DNA of 63,746 bases from Acetomicrobium thermoterrenum DSM 13490 (GTDB lineage Bacteria; Synergistota; Synergistia; Synergistales; Acetomicrobiaceae). Under the pieces are notes generated by a model that saw nothing but the letters and a program-made list of their open reading frames with translations, was not told where the DNA came from and did no database searches. Below, piece by piece: positions 5,383 to 12,928 of the stretch. The stretch spans positions 1-63,746 of the forward strand of contig NZ_FNPD01000011.1 of NCBI RefSeq assembly GCF_900107215.1. The letters run 5' to 3'. The translations under genes and the position numbers were made by a program. Numbering within the stretch: the stretch's first letter is position 1; each line of letters starts with the position of its first letter.

Positions 5383-6616
5383 CTTCCCCCATAGAGAGCA
5401 TGTTAGACAAACAAAAAGCAAGATAGGCTTCCAAACCTGCGGCAAAAGGAAGCAGATCTTCCGGTACATCATACTTCGGATGATGCAACCAATATTTACC
5501 TCCCGTCCCAAACAGAAGAAAACATGACGGAATGACTTGCGTGTAAAAAGCGAAATCTTCGCCGGCCATCAATGGCCTATCCATAATCTCCAAGTTCTCG
5601 TCTCCAAAAGAGTCACGGGCAATCCTTAAAACTAAACTTGTAAGCCTTTCATCGTTTATCACCTGGGGGTAGTTGCGATGATATTTAATAGTACCAAGTC
5701 CCCTAAAGGTTTTTGCCAGTAAAGGAACCATTTCCTCCAGTCTGTTTTGAAGAAAATCGCGAACCTCTACGTTCAATGCCCTCAGAGAGCCCCACAGGTC
5801 TATTTGTTCGGGAATAACATTATGCGCTTCTCCTGCTTCCAGGTGCCCAAAGGAAATAACGGCGCTTTCCGTAGGGTCTATTTCCCTACCCACTAACGCC
5901 TGAGCAGCGAGTATTACATGGGCAATGATCGTCCAAGGATCTACCGTAAGATGGGGGGCAGCGGCATGGCCACCGACACCTTGAATAGATATATGAAACC
6001 TGTCGGAGAGGGCAGTCATAATTCCAGGCCTCAACAATAATTTGCCGTACCCGTATTTGGGCCAAAAATGAAAACCCAAAGCATAACCAATATTATAGAT
6101 GTCCAAAAGACCCGCATCGATCAACCGTTTTGCCCCACCAAGACCTTCTTCGGCTGGTTGAAACACCAACACCACGGATCTGTCGAGCATCTCTCTTCTT
6201 TGGGATAAAAGCAGTGCCACTCCCAACAACACCGCCATGTGGGCATCATGACCACAACCGTGCATTACCCCAGGGATACACGAAGCAAATGTAAGATCGG
6301 TTTCCTCTTGAAGAGGCAGGGCGTCCATAGGACACCTGATCATTATTGCCCTTCCTTCCCTTTTGCCACTTATTTTTCCTATGACGGCGGTGGTTTCCCC
6401 AAAGGCCTGCGTAACTTCAACACCGGGCATGCTTTTGAGGATTTGGAAAACTCTGGAAGATGTTACCCTTTCCTCAAAGGCCAACTCGGGAAAAACGTGA
6501 AAACCTCTTCTCCACTCGACCAATTGATCGTAAATATTAGTTGCCTCTTCAAAAAGATCTTCTTTTGTCTTGAGCCTCTCTTGCTTCGATATTCCCACAA
6601 CCATCACCGTCGTCAA
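5369..6616 (-). CDS. M20-family metal-dependent amidohydrolase / aminoacylase
   Basis: Up to 415 residues. The peptidase M20D (hippurate/IAA-amino-acid hydrolase) pattern is clear: MHGCGHDAHMA provides metal-binding Cys/His/Asp, PAEEGLGGAKRLIDAG holds the catalytic Glu, and a central dimerisation domain precedes the C-terminal LMAGEDFAFY. Such enzymes cleave N-acyl amino acids. The start is uncertain: a TTG at 6616 overlaps the preceding stop, and GTG or ATG codons follow within 20 bases, none with a strong ribosome site. It is the second gene of the 7989-to-2919 group. Confidence 0.85.
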   Translation of the reverse strand: MTTVMVVGISKQERLKTKEDLFEEATNIYDQLVEWRRGFHVFPELAFEERVTSSRVFQILKSMPGVEVTQAFGETTAVIGKISGKREGRAIMIRCPMDALPLQEETDLTFASCIPGVMHGCGHDAHMAVLLGVALLLSQRREMLDRSVVLVFQPAEEGLGGAKRLIDAGLLDIYNIGYALGFHFWPKYGYGKLLLRPGIMTALSDRFHISIQGVGGHAAAPHLTVDPWTIIAHVILAAQALVGREIDPTESAVISFGHLEAGEAHNVIPEQIDLWGSLRALNVEVRDFLQNRLEEMVPLLAKTFRGLGTIKYHRNYPQVINDERLTSLVLRIARDSFGDENLEIMDRPLMAGEDFAFYTQVIPSCFLLFGTGGKYWLHHPKYDVPEDLLPFAAGLEAYLAFCLSNMLSMGEDEIG

Positions 6617-7989
6617 CTAAACATTTTTAGCATAATTTCGGGATTGCTCCAAAACTCCGGCTTCACCGCAAAGGCCGAAGCATTTCCATACACCCAACCG
6701 TCTTCTATCGGAGCTTGAGAACCCTCTTGCTTTACAGTCCACGTTGGCATGCAGTTAAAACCCTTCACCTCAAGCTTAACCCAGGTAGGCCAATATCCGC
6801 TCAAAGATTTCCCGGTGCGTTTTTCGGAAGATATATGTTCGATATTGACTTTATGGCATGGGCCTGAGCTCTCTGCATAATAACCCTTGAAAGGGAAAAA
6901 TGACAAGCCCCTTATCTGATCCCCATTGGACAGGAAAAAGGATTCTCCGAATATTGGAGATGATCCCCCTTCGATTAAGAGTTTCCCCTTAACGAGAACA
7001 GACGAAAAAGCTTTTACTAAAGAGCGATTTTCAACGAGATCTTTCATAAACACATATCCTATGCCATGGGGAACATATATGAAGTCTAAGTCACTATAAT
7101 TCGTTATTTCATCATATGGAAGTGATATTACGTCATATCCTAGGGCCACCAGCAACTTTTCGTTATTGTCCCCTCCCAAAGTAAGAGCAGGATGATGCAC
7201 CACTCCAACCTTTCTCTTATCGGAACGATAGCTCATATCGAACTCCAACATTTCCACGTTCAACTGTGCTGCGCCACGAGCATGAGCCACAACTACCTCC
7301 CACTCGATTTGTCTTTCCATCGCTATGAGCCGGGCAGCTGCAGTTTTCAACGACAGCAAGGAACGGTTGCCCGACAATTGGCCAACTATGGATAAAAAAT
7401 CCGGTTTTTGCTTGAAAATAAAACCCGGTATATAACCCAAAGCAGTCCATGGAAGATCTCTGCCGACAGATATTTCTAGAAGTTGATACTCCCTAGGGTT
7501 TAAGACGGAGGAGAAGGCGACAGCATTTATTAAATTTGAAACGGAGTTAGGCAATTGCCGCGCAAACTCCAAAACGCGCCTTGCAGTTGTAGCGGAGGAA
7601 CCGCTGGAAAAAAATACGGGAATAATAGGGCATTTCAATTGCTCAGCCACAGACGCCAAAACAGGGTTAACTTTAATTTTCTCCTCGCTACAACTTCCGA
7701 GGGAAGCAAAGAGTATATTTAAACGATCTTCCCGTGCCGCTGTGACGAACAGTTGTTTCAAGCGGTGTACGTTTTCAAGCAAACGCGAATCCAATACAGT
7801 TGCCGGCTCACCGAAAAGGACATACAGCAAAGCCGTCAGATGCTCGTCGATGCCCACTACGAAGGGTTTTATCTTATAACCTGCCTGTTGCAACGCAATG
7901 GCCATAATTACACCTGGAGGGATCAACGATTCATCTCGCTCGTCTGCAAATATAACTCTTGGCATCGAAAAGGTTTTATTGTCACTCAT
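6613..7989 (-). CDS. Degenerate CbiA/CobB-like amidotransferase homologue
   Basis: 458 residues that align in layout with cobyrinic acid a,c-diamide synthase: an N-terminal dethiobiotin-synthetase-like domain (IKPFVVGIDE matches the family's VqPFKVGPDY, PWTALGYIP matches the pvlGyiP segment) and a C-terminal class I glutaminase-like domain (YVPHGIGYVFMKDLVENRS, LIEGGSSPIFGE). The P-loop (GxxSGxGKT in the family) reads ADERDESLIPPG here, and the glutaminase Cys of the AECGG motif is replaced (IEGGSS). Both catalytic centres therefore look lost. It may have acquired a binding, structural or different catalytic role. It heads a four-gene minus-strand group. Confidence 0.65.
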   Translation of the reverse strand: MSDNKTFSMPRVIFADERDESLIPPGVIMAIALQQAGYKIKPFVVGIDEHLTALLYVLFGEPATVLDSRLLENVHRLKQLFVTAAREDRLNILFASLGSCSEEKIKVNPVLASVAEQLKCPIIPVFFSSGSSATTARRVLEFARQLPNSVSNLINAVAFSSVLNPREYQLLEISVGRDLPWTALGYIPGFIFKQKPDFLSIVGQLSGNRSLLSLKTAAARLIAMERQIEWEVVVAHARGAAQLNVEMLEFDMSYRSDKRKVGVVHHPALTLGGDNNEKLLVALGYDVISLPYDEITNYSDLDFIYVPHGIGYVFMKDLVENRSLVKAFSSVLVKGKLLIEGGSSPIFGESFFLSNGDQIRGLSFFPFKGYYAESSGPCHKVNIEHISSEKRTGKSLSGYWPTWVKLEVKGFNCMPTWTVKQEGSQAPIEDGWVYGNASAFAVKPEFWSNPEIMLKMFS

Positions 7990-8075
7990 GAATAAAGTTT
8001 ATCACACTTGCTATGACTGACAAACTCTTCAAAATTAGATGGCGGATTGCAGATCAGAGTCGCACTTTAAAAAAA

Positions 8076-8117
8076 TACCTTGGCCCACTAAAGATAATAA
8101 TTTCGTGGGCCAAGGTA
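8076..8117 (-). terminator. Rho-independent terminator after the HesB-like gene
   Basis: A 13-bp stem (TACCTTGGCCCAC with GTGGGCCAAGGTA on the plus strand) with a 16-base loop. On the minus strand it is followed by a TATTTTTTT tract. It ends transcription nine bases after the HesB-like stop and ahead of the CbiA-like gene. Confidence 0.9.
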
Positions 8118-8125
8118 TCGACAAT

Positions 8126-8452
8126 TTATTTACAACCCGAGCATCCTGAAGTTGGAAGCACTGCGGACTTAACTATCAACTTCGACCCCCAAATGGAACG
8201 CATTACTTGGATGTCTATGGTATCGCTTTGAAAGGACATGCCCTTCGGAACCCACAGATCGACATCCCCATCCTTAACCTCAAAGTAATCTTCGAGATTA
8301 GCCGGCTTCCCGCCCTCAACGAGGGCCGCATAATAGGAAGATCAACCCCCTCCCATTCTTTTCACCGTAATGTATCCTTCGTTGCCCGACTCTTGTAGCT
8401 TTTTGCGAGCATCTTCAGATATAGAAACACCTAATTTAGCTATATTTTCCAT
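8126..8452 (-). CDS. HesB-like selenoprotein (in-frame UGA read as Sec37)
   Basis: Starts at ATG 8452 behind GGGGGT. The frame reads 36 codons, meets TGA at 8344-8342, then continues without another stop for 71 codons to TAA at 8128-8126, giving 108 residues. The product has HesB/IscA layout: RMGGG-Sec-SSYY occupies the family's GGGC-S-x-x-Y position and the C-terminus is SGCSGCK, the usual CxxC/CGC pair. The recoded residue thus sits exactly at the first conserved Cys. A GC-rich hairpin lies 15 bases after the UGA. HesB-like selenoproteins are known; the role here (Fe-S or redox) is inference. Conventional gene callers would miss or split it. Confidence 0.85.
8312..8326 (-). promoter_or_regulatory. 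Candidate bacterial SECIS element
   Basis: A perfect 6-bp stem, GCCCTC-GTT-GAGGGC on the minus strand, begins 15 bases after the in-frame TGA (8344-8342). Bacterial SECIS elements are small hairpins inside the coding region just downstream of UGA, with G and U in the apical loop, as seen here (GUU). Binding by SelB is inferred. Confidence 0.65.
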
Positions 8453-8494
8453 TCAATTTCACCCCCAGCAAGTATCTCATACAATTTAAAGCTA

Positions 8495-9418
8495 TTATAG
8501 CATACCTCTTATGGTATCCAAAGATAAATCAAAAAGACCTATCACAATTACCATATCTGCAGGCAATGGTGCGCAAAATTTTCTACCCGCCAAATAACTC
8601 AAATCATTCCCAAAAATTTCCAGAGAGTAGGCATGCAGCATTGGCCTTCCTGCTTCTTTGCCACTGTCGCCGTACTTGACATCGCCAACGATAGGATGCC
8701 CGATGTGCGATAGATGAACCCTAAGTTGATGCGGTCTCCCGGTAATCGGCTCCAATGCCACCAAAGAGGCACGATTTCCTGCCGACAAAGACATGTATCG
8801 CGTGGCAGACCTCTTGCCTTCCCCCTTGTTTACTACCGTCTTGAGAGAATGTTCGTCCCTTTCAAGGGGAGCTTCTATTACGCCTTCTCCGGATATACAT
8901 CCCCTTACAACGGCCAAATATGTCTTGGCAACCCTTCTGTTTCTGAATATAGCTGTCAGTGCTCTTAAAGAACGAGGATTTAAGGCGAGGGCCATTACCC
9001 CGGATACATTACGGTCTAGCCTATGTGCCGGGGTAGGAATAAAATCCCCTTTAGTTTTATTGATCAAATTGAGTGCTCTGTTAACGACCGAGTCATCCTC
9101 TCTGGATGCCGGTTGGCTCAAAAGCCCGGCAGGCTTATTTATTATCAAAACATTTTGATCCATAAATATCACTTCCAAAGGTTTATCCACTACATTTAGC
9201 GAGGACTTTAGTTTCGCAGGATCTTCAAAGGGTACGCTGACTTCGTCTCCCCTATATAAGCGATAGGAGGGCTCTGTTTTTTCTCCGTTAACGGTGATCT
9301 TTCCTTTTCTGATAGCGCGCATAATGGCACCCAAGGGTACCTGACTATATTTCTTTCGCAGGAATCTATCCAGCCTCACGCAATCGTAATCTTCATCTAT
9401 CTTCCATATTTTCGCCAT
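8495..9418 (-). CDS. RluA-family 23S rRNA/tRNA pseudouridine synthase
   Basis: 307 residues from ATG 9418 (AAAAGGT precedes it; an in-frame ATG at 9442 lies deeper inside the upstream gene). It has an N-terminal S4 RNA-binding domain (RLDRFLRKKY, GKITVNGEKTE) and the catalytic domain with HRLDRNVSGVM, whose Asp is the nucleophile, plus GRPHQLRVHLSHIGHPIVGD. It resembles RluC/RluD, which modify 23S rRNA; which position is modified cannot be told. It overlaps the upstream PEP-binding-domain gene by 26 bp and lies upstream of the selenoprotein gene. Confidence 0.87.
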   Translation of the reverse strand: MAKIWKIDEDYDCVRLDRFLRKKYSQVPLGAIMRAIRKGKITVNGEKTEPSYRLYRGDEVSVPFEDPAKLKSSLNVVDKPLEVIFMDQNVLIINKPAGLLSQPASREDDSVVNRALNLINKTKGDFIPTPAHRLDRNVSGVMALALNPRSLRALTAIFRNRRVAKTYLAVVRGCISGEGVIEAPLERDEHSLKTVVNKGEGKRSATRYMSLSAGNRASLVALEPITGRPHQLRVHLSHIGHPIVGDVKYGDSGKEAGRPMLHAYSLEIFGNDLSYLAGRKFCAPLPADMVIVIGLFDLSLDTIRGML

Positions 9419-11183
9419 CGCACGTACCTTTTCTGACGGCAACGATTCCTATATTTCTCGCACAGTCCATATATACATCAAAGGATCCTTTGTATATTTT
9501 GATCCCCAGATCTTGCATCTTCTGGCAACATGCCGATTCAAACCACTCCTGCCTGAAGACATTCCCCTTCTCCCCTGCGAATACCGGCATATAGAGGACG
9601 TTATCTATTTCCAGATCGGAGTAAAAATGGGTACCATAGGAAAGTTCGGGCATAAATCCCAACACGGGAATTCCAACTTCTACAATGCACTTACAGTTTG
9701 TTAATTCGCTATATTGAACTGGGACTCCCAAGGCAGGATTGCTCGATCCAACTCTGCCGGGTGCCACCAAAATATAGGAATTAGGATACAACTTCTTGTT
9801 GATCTCTCCTATGGCTCTTGCAATCTCATGTTTATTAGCCGCCGTCACGTATACTTTATGATCAACATATACCAGATATGGCACGTTCTCAAGCTGTCCG
9901 TCGGTGACCATTCTGTCCGCCTTGAGAATTACAAGCTTACCCTCCAGGTCCCTTTCATCAAATTTAGAATCACAGCAACCCGTCCAAAGAGGCCTGGCCT
10001 GCAGCAACTCCAATTTCCTTTCGCTCGGTTCGTAGGCAAACTCTATATCCACAGGGGCACCCATGGAATCTTCCAAATGCTTAAGGAGTTTTTGCATTCT
10101 TGTAAAGAAGTCAGGGTTGTGTCTCGTAAACCTTTCAAAGGTAACGCAAACCTTGCTGTCGTCTTCCTGTTGCCTGAAATAAGACAAATCGAGGTTTTCC
10201 CAATAACCGTTACCGTCATCTTCACGATATACCTGGGCATACTCTCCAAGCTCTCTTCCGTAATGCGTCAACAAATAATCTAATATTCCCTTATCGTTTA
10301 TGTTGTAAGTTACTATATCTCCTCTATCTCCGTCTATCATTTGAAAGCTCTCCTGGGAATGCCTCATTACGTTGTAAGGATGATTACCTTCCGGCCTGAG
10401 ATTGGGATTTGAAAGCGAAAAAATTCTAGCGTAACCACGCCTAGTGCTCATTGTTCCAAGGCCAAATACCAGCCGCAACAAACCATCTTCTACGTTCAGG
10501 CGAGTGCACCACCTTCTCAAGTTTAATGAATATCCTACTCCTGCCGTAGTTGGGAAATAATAGCGACCTCTCCACTTACCTGAGGCTCGCATGACGATTA
10601 TTCCCATTTTGTCATCGCCCAATTTGTGTTTGTTGCGGTATTCTACAGCCGTTGGGAAAAAGGTCCTGGCATATATTCGCTTTATTTCGTTCTCGATCGC
10701 CAAAACTCGTTCGTTTAAGTCTCCGCTGGCGTGCAGTAGCCGTGATCTGTATTTTCCGGCGAAGGAATATTTGAGCGAATCTTCCAGCATGGACGATGAA
10801 CGTACCGCGATGGGGGAATCGACACATTCAAGAAATGAAGCTATACGTTCCCTTACATTACTGGGCAATTCAGCGTCAAGAAACCTTCGCTCAATTCTTT
10901 CGGGCTCACTGTCCAAGACGTTGTCCAAATCATCTATTTGGCTTAAAAATTTATCGAAGGCCTCGATGCTTATAAAAATAGATTCCGGCATCTCCGTAGA
11001 AACAAGTTCATCGACACCACTTTCGAGAAGGGATTTCATTCCAAAAAGAAGGGACCTTCCCTTTCCGCCGATATGACCGGCTCCCACGATCGAGCTTGCA
11101 AAACGATCATCGTTACATGGGTCCCAAGAAAAATAGCTTGCCAATTTATCCTCTCGCACTCTGCCAGAAACTTCAGAACCCAC
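9393..11183 (-). CDS. PEP/pyruvate-binding (PPDK_N) domain protein, paralogue 2
   Basis: 596 residues. It contains the ATP-grasp-like nucleotide-binding domain of pyruvate phosphate dikinase and PEP synthase (GGKGRSLLFGM near residue 39, SPIAVRSSSMLEDSLKYSFAGKYRS, IEFAYEPSERKLELLQARPLW). The phosphohistidine swivel and the PEP TIM barrel of full-length enzymes are missing. A C-terminal region of about 170 residues (YILVAPGRVGSSNPALGVPV, ELSYGTHF) replaces them and is shared with the adjacent paralogue. The function is unknown; phosphotransfer from ATP is plausible. It lies 14 bp after the first paralogue. Confidence 0.75.
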   Translation of the reverse strand: MGSEVSGRVREDKLASYFSWDPCNDDRFASSIVGAGHIGGKGRSLLFGMKSLLESGVDELVSTEMPESIFISIEAFDKFLSQIDDLDNVLDSEPERIERRFLDAELPSNVRERIASFLECVDSPIAVRSSSMLEDSLKYSFAGKYRSRLLHASGDLNERVLAIENEIKRIYARTFFPTAVEYRNKHKLGDDKMGIIVMRASGKWRGRYYFPTTAGVGYSLNLRRWCTRLNVEDGLLRLVFGLGTMSTRRGYARIFSLSNPNLRPEGNHPYNVMRHSQESFQMIDGDRGDIVTYNINDKGILDYLLTHYGRELGEYAQVYREDDGNGYWENLDLSYFRQQEDDSKVCVTFERFTRHNPDFFTRMQKLLKHLEDSMGAPVDIEFAYEPSERKLELLQARPLWTGCCDSKFDERDLEGKLVILKADRMVTDGQLENVPYLVYVDHKVYVTAANKHEIARAIGEINKKLYPNSYILVAPGRVGSSNPALGVPVQYSELTNCKCIVEVGIPVLGFMPELSYGTHFYSDLEIDNVLYMPVFAGEKGNVFRQEWFESACCQKMQDLGIKIYKGSFDVYMDCARNIGIVAVRKGTCDGENMEDR

Positions 11184-11197
11184 AACCTAAACCTCCT

Positions 11198-12928
11198 TTA
11201 GGTCTCGTCGACAATGACTCCTATTTCCCTTTCCCCATTTAAATACACTCCGAAATTTCCTTCGTAGATCCTTAGGGCTTCATGTTCGCCCATAAAGAAG
11301 GGCGTCTTCTCAAACCACTGCTCGTTGCAAATATTGCCATGCTCTCCGCAAAAAACGGGCAAATAAAGTATCTTGTCCGTGTCGAGGTCAAGGAAGAAGT
11401 GAGATCCATAGGACAATTCAGGCACAACTCCAGCACTAGGGACACTTACTTCCACTATGCAGCCGCATCCCGATATCTCTCCGTATGACACGGGTACTCC
11501 AAGCAAAGGATTTGTACTGCCCCATCTTCCGGGGCCTACCAATATGTACCTTTCTCCCAAAAGCTTTTCGTTTGCCTTCCCTACGGCTCGCGCAATCTGA
11601 ACGAATTCCCTCGTATCCATATATAGCTTGGGGTCTACATAGACGAGATGGCGAACACCCCTCAACTTTCCGTTGGAAATCATTCTGTTTCCTCGCAATA
11701 CTATCCGTTCAGACGGTATTTGGGGAATCTCCACATCACCCCACTCTTCAAAAGTAGCAAGAGGCCTCATTTGCACTAAAGCGAGCCGATCATCTTCGGT
11801 CTCGTACGTAAATTCCAAATCCACAGCAAGTCCCGCTCTTTCCTCCATCAGCCTCAACAGGGAACGTATTTTTTCAAAAAATGTGGAGAATCTGCGAGGA
11901 AAGTTGGAGAAAGTCATAACAGGCCACATTTTTTGAATATCAGAAACAATACCGCCGTGTAGCATATAAAACATCTCTCCGTCGCTCAATTCCAAAAAGG
12001 AAGAGGCATTTTTGTGGTGAGTAATTATGTGGTCTAAGGCCATATCTATTCTGTTGCTTAAAAAGAAACCTCTTTTTAAATCGATATAATCGAATTCGTC
12101 TTGAGCATGAGCGATGATATCGCTGGCCCTGTTGCCCTCGACTCTAAGTCCCGGCAGGCTTAAGTAAAAAACCTTGGCATTAGCCCTTGCGACGGCCCTG
12201 GTACCAAGGCCAAAACACAGTCGCAACAAGCCCTCCTCTCTTCTTACTCTAGGACTTGGGCGACGATATACCTTTGAGAAGGCTACTCCGGCCAACTCGG
12301 GGTAATATAATTGACCTCGCTTCCTGCCTACAATTGGCTGTATTATTATGGCCATCCTTTCCTGTGCCAGTTTAATGCCGTGTCTTCTGCGATACTCCTT
12401 GGCAGATGGGTTGAAAGTGGATGCGTAAACTAATTTTATTGCCCTTTCAAACCTGTGAAGTCTGTATTCCAGATCTCCACTATTTCCAAAAAACCTCGTC
12501 GAGTATTTGCCGGCAAAGGAAAAGGCAAGATCGTCTTCCAGAACTGACGAAGACCTGACTGCCACTGGTGTGTCGATATCAAGCAAAATGTTAACAAGGG
12601 TATCGCGCAAACTCTCAGAAAAATTGGCCCCTTCAAAAGCCCTCTCGATCTCCTCAAAATTTTGGGCACCCCTGACAATAGGCTCTAAATTATTGCGCAC
12701 CATGAAGTCATTAAATACCTCTGTGGTAAGTACATAGGACACCCTGGGGAAATCTATACACTTCCCCAAAGGGTTGGTCTGAAGGGCTTCCGCAGCAAAA
12801 GCTACTCCCTTTGCCTTGCCCCCTATCTCGCCTTCCCCTATGGACCATTTTTTTGATCGATAGAAGGATGTTCCTTCATAATGTGCATACGGTGCGCTTG
12901 CCATTGACATCCACCAACTCCCGCTCAC
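11198..12928 (-). CDS. PEP/pyruvate-binding (PPDK_N) domain protein, paralogue 1
   Basis: 576 residues with the same architecture as the next gene: an N-terminal PPDK ATP-binding domain (GGKAKGVAFAAEAL, TPVAVRSSSVLEDDLAFSFAGKYST, LEFTYETEDDRLALVQMRPLA) and the same C-terminal region (YILVGPGRWGSTNPLLGVPV, ELSYGSHFF). The paralogues are clearly diverged throughout, suggesting an old tandem duplication with two retained roles. No swivel-His or PEP-binding barrel is present. It lies nine bases after apgM, whose product 2-phosphoglycerate is one step from PEP; a metabolic link is only suggestive. Confidence 0.75.
   Translation of the reverse strand: MSGSWWMSMASAPYAHYEGTSFYRSKKWSIGEGEIGGKAKGVAFAAEALQTNPLGKCIDFPRVSYVLTTEVFNDFMVRNNLEPIVRGAQNFEEIERAFEGANFSESLRDTLVNILLDIDTPVAVRSSSVLEDDLAFSFAGKYSTRFFGNSGDLEYRLHRFERAIKLVYASTFNPSAKEYRRRHGIKLAQERMAIIIQPIVGRKRGQLYYPELAGVAFSKVYRRPSPRVRREEGLLRLCFGLGTRAVARANAKVFYLSLPGLRVEGNRASDIIAHAQDEFDYIDLKRGFFLSNRIDMALDHIITHHKNASSFLELSDGEMFYMLHGGIVSDIQKMWPVMTFSNFPRRFSTFFEKIRSLLRLMEERAGLAVDLEFTYETEDDRLALVQMRPLATFEEWGDVEIPQIPSERIVLRGNRMISNGKLRGVRHLVYVDPKLYMDTREFVQIARAVGKANEKLLGERYILVGPGRWGSTNPLLGVPVSYGEISGCGCIVEVSVPSAGVVPELSYGSHFFLDLDTDKILYLPVFCGEHGNICNEQWFEKTPFFMGEHEALRIYEGNFGVYLNGEREIGVIVDET

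Follow-up and report, generated by a model that had tools for sequence, protein, structure and literature searches.

Synergistetes have been described as a selenoprotein-rich phylum (PMC5029168). Among the selenoprotein families already listed, NF041239 (the 'CC/Se motif family (seleno)protein') is a predicted one that was initially recognised in Moorella thermoacetica (PMC13188914, Table 1), and for which CxxU is given as the representative motif in the summary of that review, outside the curated family definition. HesB-like selenoproteins form a separate family, TIGR01911, with a UxGP motif (PMC13188914). Both can be set beside the A-type Fe-S carriers IscA, SufA and ErpA (PF01521), in which three cysteines (35, 99 and 101 in IscA) make up the cluster site. 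Here we describe a locus on contig NZ_FNPD01000011.1 of Acetomicrobium thermoterrenum DSM 13490, in a stretch of 63,746 nucleotides that was analysed as a whole (hereafter "the window"), where a sequence-only reading had proposed a HesB-like selenoprotein gene with an in-frame UGA.

Results

The candidate selenoprotein gene lies at 8126..8452 on the minus strand, and its reading frame is as the sequence-only reading had described it: 36 codons, a TGA at 8344-8342 and a further 71 codons that end in SGCSGCK. With TGA translated as selenocysteine (Sec), the 108 codons, which are followed by TAA, yield a protein of 108 residues with Sec at position 37, where the in-frame UGA (8342..8344, minus strand) forms part of a GxGU motif. 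A purine-rich putative ribosome binding site (GGGGGTGAAA, 8456..8465, minus strand) can be read directly 5' of the ATG. Directly after the second stop is an intrinsic terminator (8075..8118, minus strand), consisting of a 14-bp inverted repeat and then a T run, with a minimum free energy of -27.4 kcal/mol and a z-score of -7.6; its loop is 16 nt long, and it was missed by a consensus terminator scan, spotted by eye and then checked by folding. The open frame by itself is not beyond chance within the window, in which 15 TGA codons are flanked on either side by open runs just as long, compared with 4-8 in shuffled sequence.

When the protein was scored with Sec entered as Cys, NF041239 was the sole NCBIfam match (42.6 bits; cut-off 40), residues 9-95 aligning with positions 3-89 of the 91 in the profile. 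Residues 34-37 read G-G-G-U and so lack the CxxU motif, the motif in Synergistota being GxGU. Membership of NF041239 was kept because the score passes the curated cut-off and because CxxU describes one representative only. The protein is a new member of an already listed, uncharacterised selenoprotein family and, since the gene scores above the cut-off, it may already be present in NCBI's current annotation. Many Synergistota members fall under the same cut-off, yet are clearly homologous to one another.

The sequence-only reading had implied that selA, selB, selC and selD would be present in the genome, and a search for the four genes recovered them all. The tRNA-Sec scored 75.4 bits and has the anticodon TCA; selB scored 373.9 bits, with selA (575.4 bits) directly before it; and selD (331.8 bits) has an in-frame TGA of its own at the usual N-terminal place. 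The genome therefore holds SelA, SelB, SelD and tRNA-Sec, the set that bacterial selenoproteins require.

Bacterial selenoprotein genes also carry a SECIS-like hairpin shortly 3' of the UGA with a G within its apical loop, and such a hairpin is found here. The 6-bp stem with a GUU loop that had been proposed to begin 15 nt past the TGA was confirmed at 8326-8312 (8312..8326, minus strand; GCCCUC-GUU-GAGGGC), so that 21 nt separate the UGA from the apical loop. To judge from one sequence alone, the window hairpin is not significant (P ~0.08 under same-peptide codon randomisation); folding of 66-nt and 39-nt single strands gave weak z-scores of -0.47 and -1.62, and one-sequence folding was dropped as hairpin evidence on that account. 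Covariation was then measured over 39 divergent sequences, picked by hand so that UGA and loop are always the same distance apart; near-identical rows and a few members with other spacing were excluded. In this set 91% of cells are paired and two-sided changes occur in 6 of 8 pairs, a result that was equalled in none of 500 shuffles and that slid versions of the hairpin likewise fell far below. The clearest covarying pair joins the third, synonymous base of an Ala/Val codon to the first base of the next Ser/Gly codon (C-G in 27, T-A in 24, other in 5). In addition, CTC stands immediately before the loop in 49 of 56 sequences, whereas among the Leu codons in the rest of these ORFs its share is 113 of 583.

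The NF041239-type selenoprotein family is widespread in Synergistota. The comparison covered this phylum, a scan of genome contigs having returned close Acetomicrobium relatives only; homologues, mostly with one in-frame TGA, were found in 48 of 188 genomes with the NF041239 profile and in 73 of 188 with alignment A1. The TGA is kept in 56 of the 63 homologues that were extracted, mostly within GxGU, and the only invariant positions in the Synergistota alignment are G34, G36, Sec37, V45, G48 and P50. Past the UGA, dN/dS is ~0.06-0.1 between close Acetomicrobium pairs: this part of the gene is under purifying selection. Some Synergistota possess 2-4 paralogues (e.g. G182, G183 and G184; loci of paralogue-rich genomes are L040, L057, L058, L059, L063, L068, L072, L079, L083 and L084), and several paralogues in multi-copy genomes combine a signal-peptide-like N-terminal stretch with an in-frame TGA. 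One genome, G113, has a tandem pair ~450 bp apart (L026 and L055), one a Sec form and the other a Cys form; the Cys paralogue reads GLGCGA at the Sec column, and its codon ahead of the loop is CTG, not CTC.

Upstream of the selenoprotein gene, on the same strand, is a gene for an RluA-family pseudouridine synthase with S4 and PseudoU_synth_2 domains (8495..9442, minus strand; TIGR00005 213 bits, PF00849). A gene of this family is found directly upstream and on the same strand in 28 of the 30 loci with flanks, across which the identity of the synthases falls to ~36%; the two loci without it are exported-looking paralogues. Beyond the pair, the genes in Acetomicrobium loci are unlike those of other families, and since the flanks vary in this way the selenoprotein gene and the RluA-family gene form a conserved unit. 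Further along the minus strand of the window, 9393-11183 and 11198-12928 encode adjacent proteins of ~580 residues whose Pfam match is to PPDK_N (AMP/ATP-binding) only, with no phosphoenolpyruvate synthase match over the cut-off. On the other side, 6613-7989 (minus strand) encodes a 458-residue protein without a Pfam match, which scores 45 bits against the CobB profile TIGR00379 (cut-off 261 bits).

The sequence-only reading had placed the TGA at the first conserved Cys of the HesB/IscA fold. In an hhalign comparison with an IscA set, in which the E. coli IscA sequence was verified against 1r94/1s98, we obtained a probability of 91 and an E-value of 9e-7, with Sec37 opposite IscA Cys35. PF01521 was matched by 6 of 26 family members, all weakly (best E 2.3e-5, 25.0 bits against a gathering score of 26.3). 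A Pfam search of the window protein returned no match, PF01521 included, and a sequence search of solved structures in the PDB returned nothing meaningful for either the window protein or the family profile. An AlphaFold model, generated from the single sequence only, was poor (pLDDT 55.5); its Foldseek matches, mostly to immunoglobulin folds, were discarded as meaningless. The position claimed for Sec is thus plausible on weak but consistent profile evidence, though the model did not confirm the fold.

The alignment of Sec with Cys35, together with the C-terminal CSGC kept in the window protein, could indicate a classical A-type Fe-S carrier, one that stands in for the missing IscA/ErpA of Synergistota: PF01521 was matched in 0 of 188 Synergistota genomes and in 9 of 14 control genomes, and canonical A-type carriers are possibly absent from the phylum. 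We nonetheless regard such a stand-in as unlikely. The first of the three cysteines is replaced by Sec, any C-terminal Cys is present in only 36 of the 56 Sec members, so that the three-ligand site is not conserved, and 115 of the 188 genomes had no family member detected with alignment A1. Because the C-terminal Cys is not conserved and Sec is the sole invariant chalcogen, the three-Cys cluster site is not a family feature, and a canonical three-Cys carrier role for the family is not supported by these sequences.

The label 'HesB-like selenoprotein' given by the sequence-only reading turned out to be wrong, and membership of this established family is highly improbable. In its favour, the protein is of similar length, has GGG-U near residue 36 and a C-terminal SGCSGC, a layout like that of IscA/HesB, and it has remote profile similarity to IscA. 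However, TIGR01911 gave no match to the window protein at E-values up to 1 and none anywhere in this genome, and the protein reads USSY at the place of UxGP (PMC13188914); it belongs to NF041239 instead. Across the phylum, TIGR01911 gave only two weak matches under its cut-off (L091 and L092), both without a TGA. These come from two genomes of another Synergistota family, L091 reading SSCSCCGPSY, which is UxGP-like with Cys.

There is scarcely any likelihood that the TGA is a real stop, in which case the locus would encode a peptide of 36 residues or be a pseudogene that retains read-through remnants. Although a post-TGA open frame of such a size is not rare in the window, the TGA column is kept in dozens of species, and purifying selection, a covarying hairpin and a full Sec machinery also argue against this. 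Finally, the two antisense ORFs that overlap the gene, 8013-8231 and 8207-8398 (plus strand), are open in the window, as had been noted, but in close relatives these frames are broken by stops where the selenoprotein frame is retained, so that neither can seriously be taken for a real gene.

Discussion

We conclude that 8452-8126 on the minus strand is almost certainly a functional selenoprotein gene and a member of NF041239, a reading founded on sequence comparison: the TGA column is conserved, the hairpin covaries, selection after the TGA is purifying and a terminator lies past the second stop. The NF041239 match, the TGA column in dozens of homologues and the hairpin covariation together bring the claim well above chance. 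Ordinary stop-codon logic would split this gene, which the analysis confirms.

SelB with Sec-tRNA(Sec) would recognise the mRNA hairpin 15 nt past the UGA, so that Sec would be inserted at position 37 to give the 108-residue NF041239 protein; SelB-dependent decoding at this position is very likely. The N-terminal three quarters of the protein probably adopt an IscA/HesB-like fold, in which Sec37 would sit where IscA has its first cluster-ligand Cys. As Sec is the sole invariant chalcogen and the C-terminal Cys motif is found only in part of the family, we tentatively propose a one-selenolate role in redox or in metal/thiol handling, distinct from that of a classical three-Cys Fe-S carrier, although the odds lie somewhat against this particular assignment. 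From its synteny with the RluA-family gene alone, a connection with the maturation of RNA or of ribosomes may be suspected in this anaerobe. More speculatively, and with a good deal less confidence, the Synergistota NF041239 proteins might represent a divergent, Sec-dependent offshoot of A-type carriers that has a single selenolate, is functionally tied to an RluA-family pseudouridine synthase and has, in some lineages, given rise by duplication to exported versions. An uncharacterised family in this way gains three testable handles: it is remotely connected to Fe-S carriers, with Sec where their first ligand lies; it has a conserved RluA-family neighbour; and it occurs in a phylum in which no canonical IscA/HesB was detected.

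Compared with NF041239 as it has been described, the protein shares a nearly whole-length match above the cut-off, a small size and a single Sec, and differs in having GGGU, with no Cys before Sec, where the review lists CxxU. With the HesB-like selenoproteins of TIGR01911 it has in common its size, a Sec in a Gly-rich turn and a remote relationship to IscA; the residues following Sec are different, and there is no profile match. Like IscA, SufA and ErpA (PF01521), it aligns over its N-terminal part, with Sec37 at Cys35, and a pair of Cys lies in the C-terminal part of the window protein; unlike them, it falls below the profile cut-off, Sec replaces the first Cys, and the C-terminal Cys are not family-wide.
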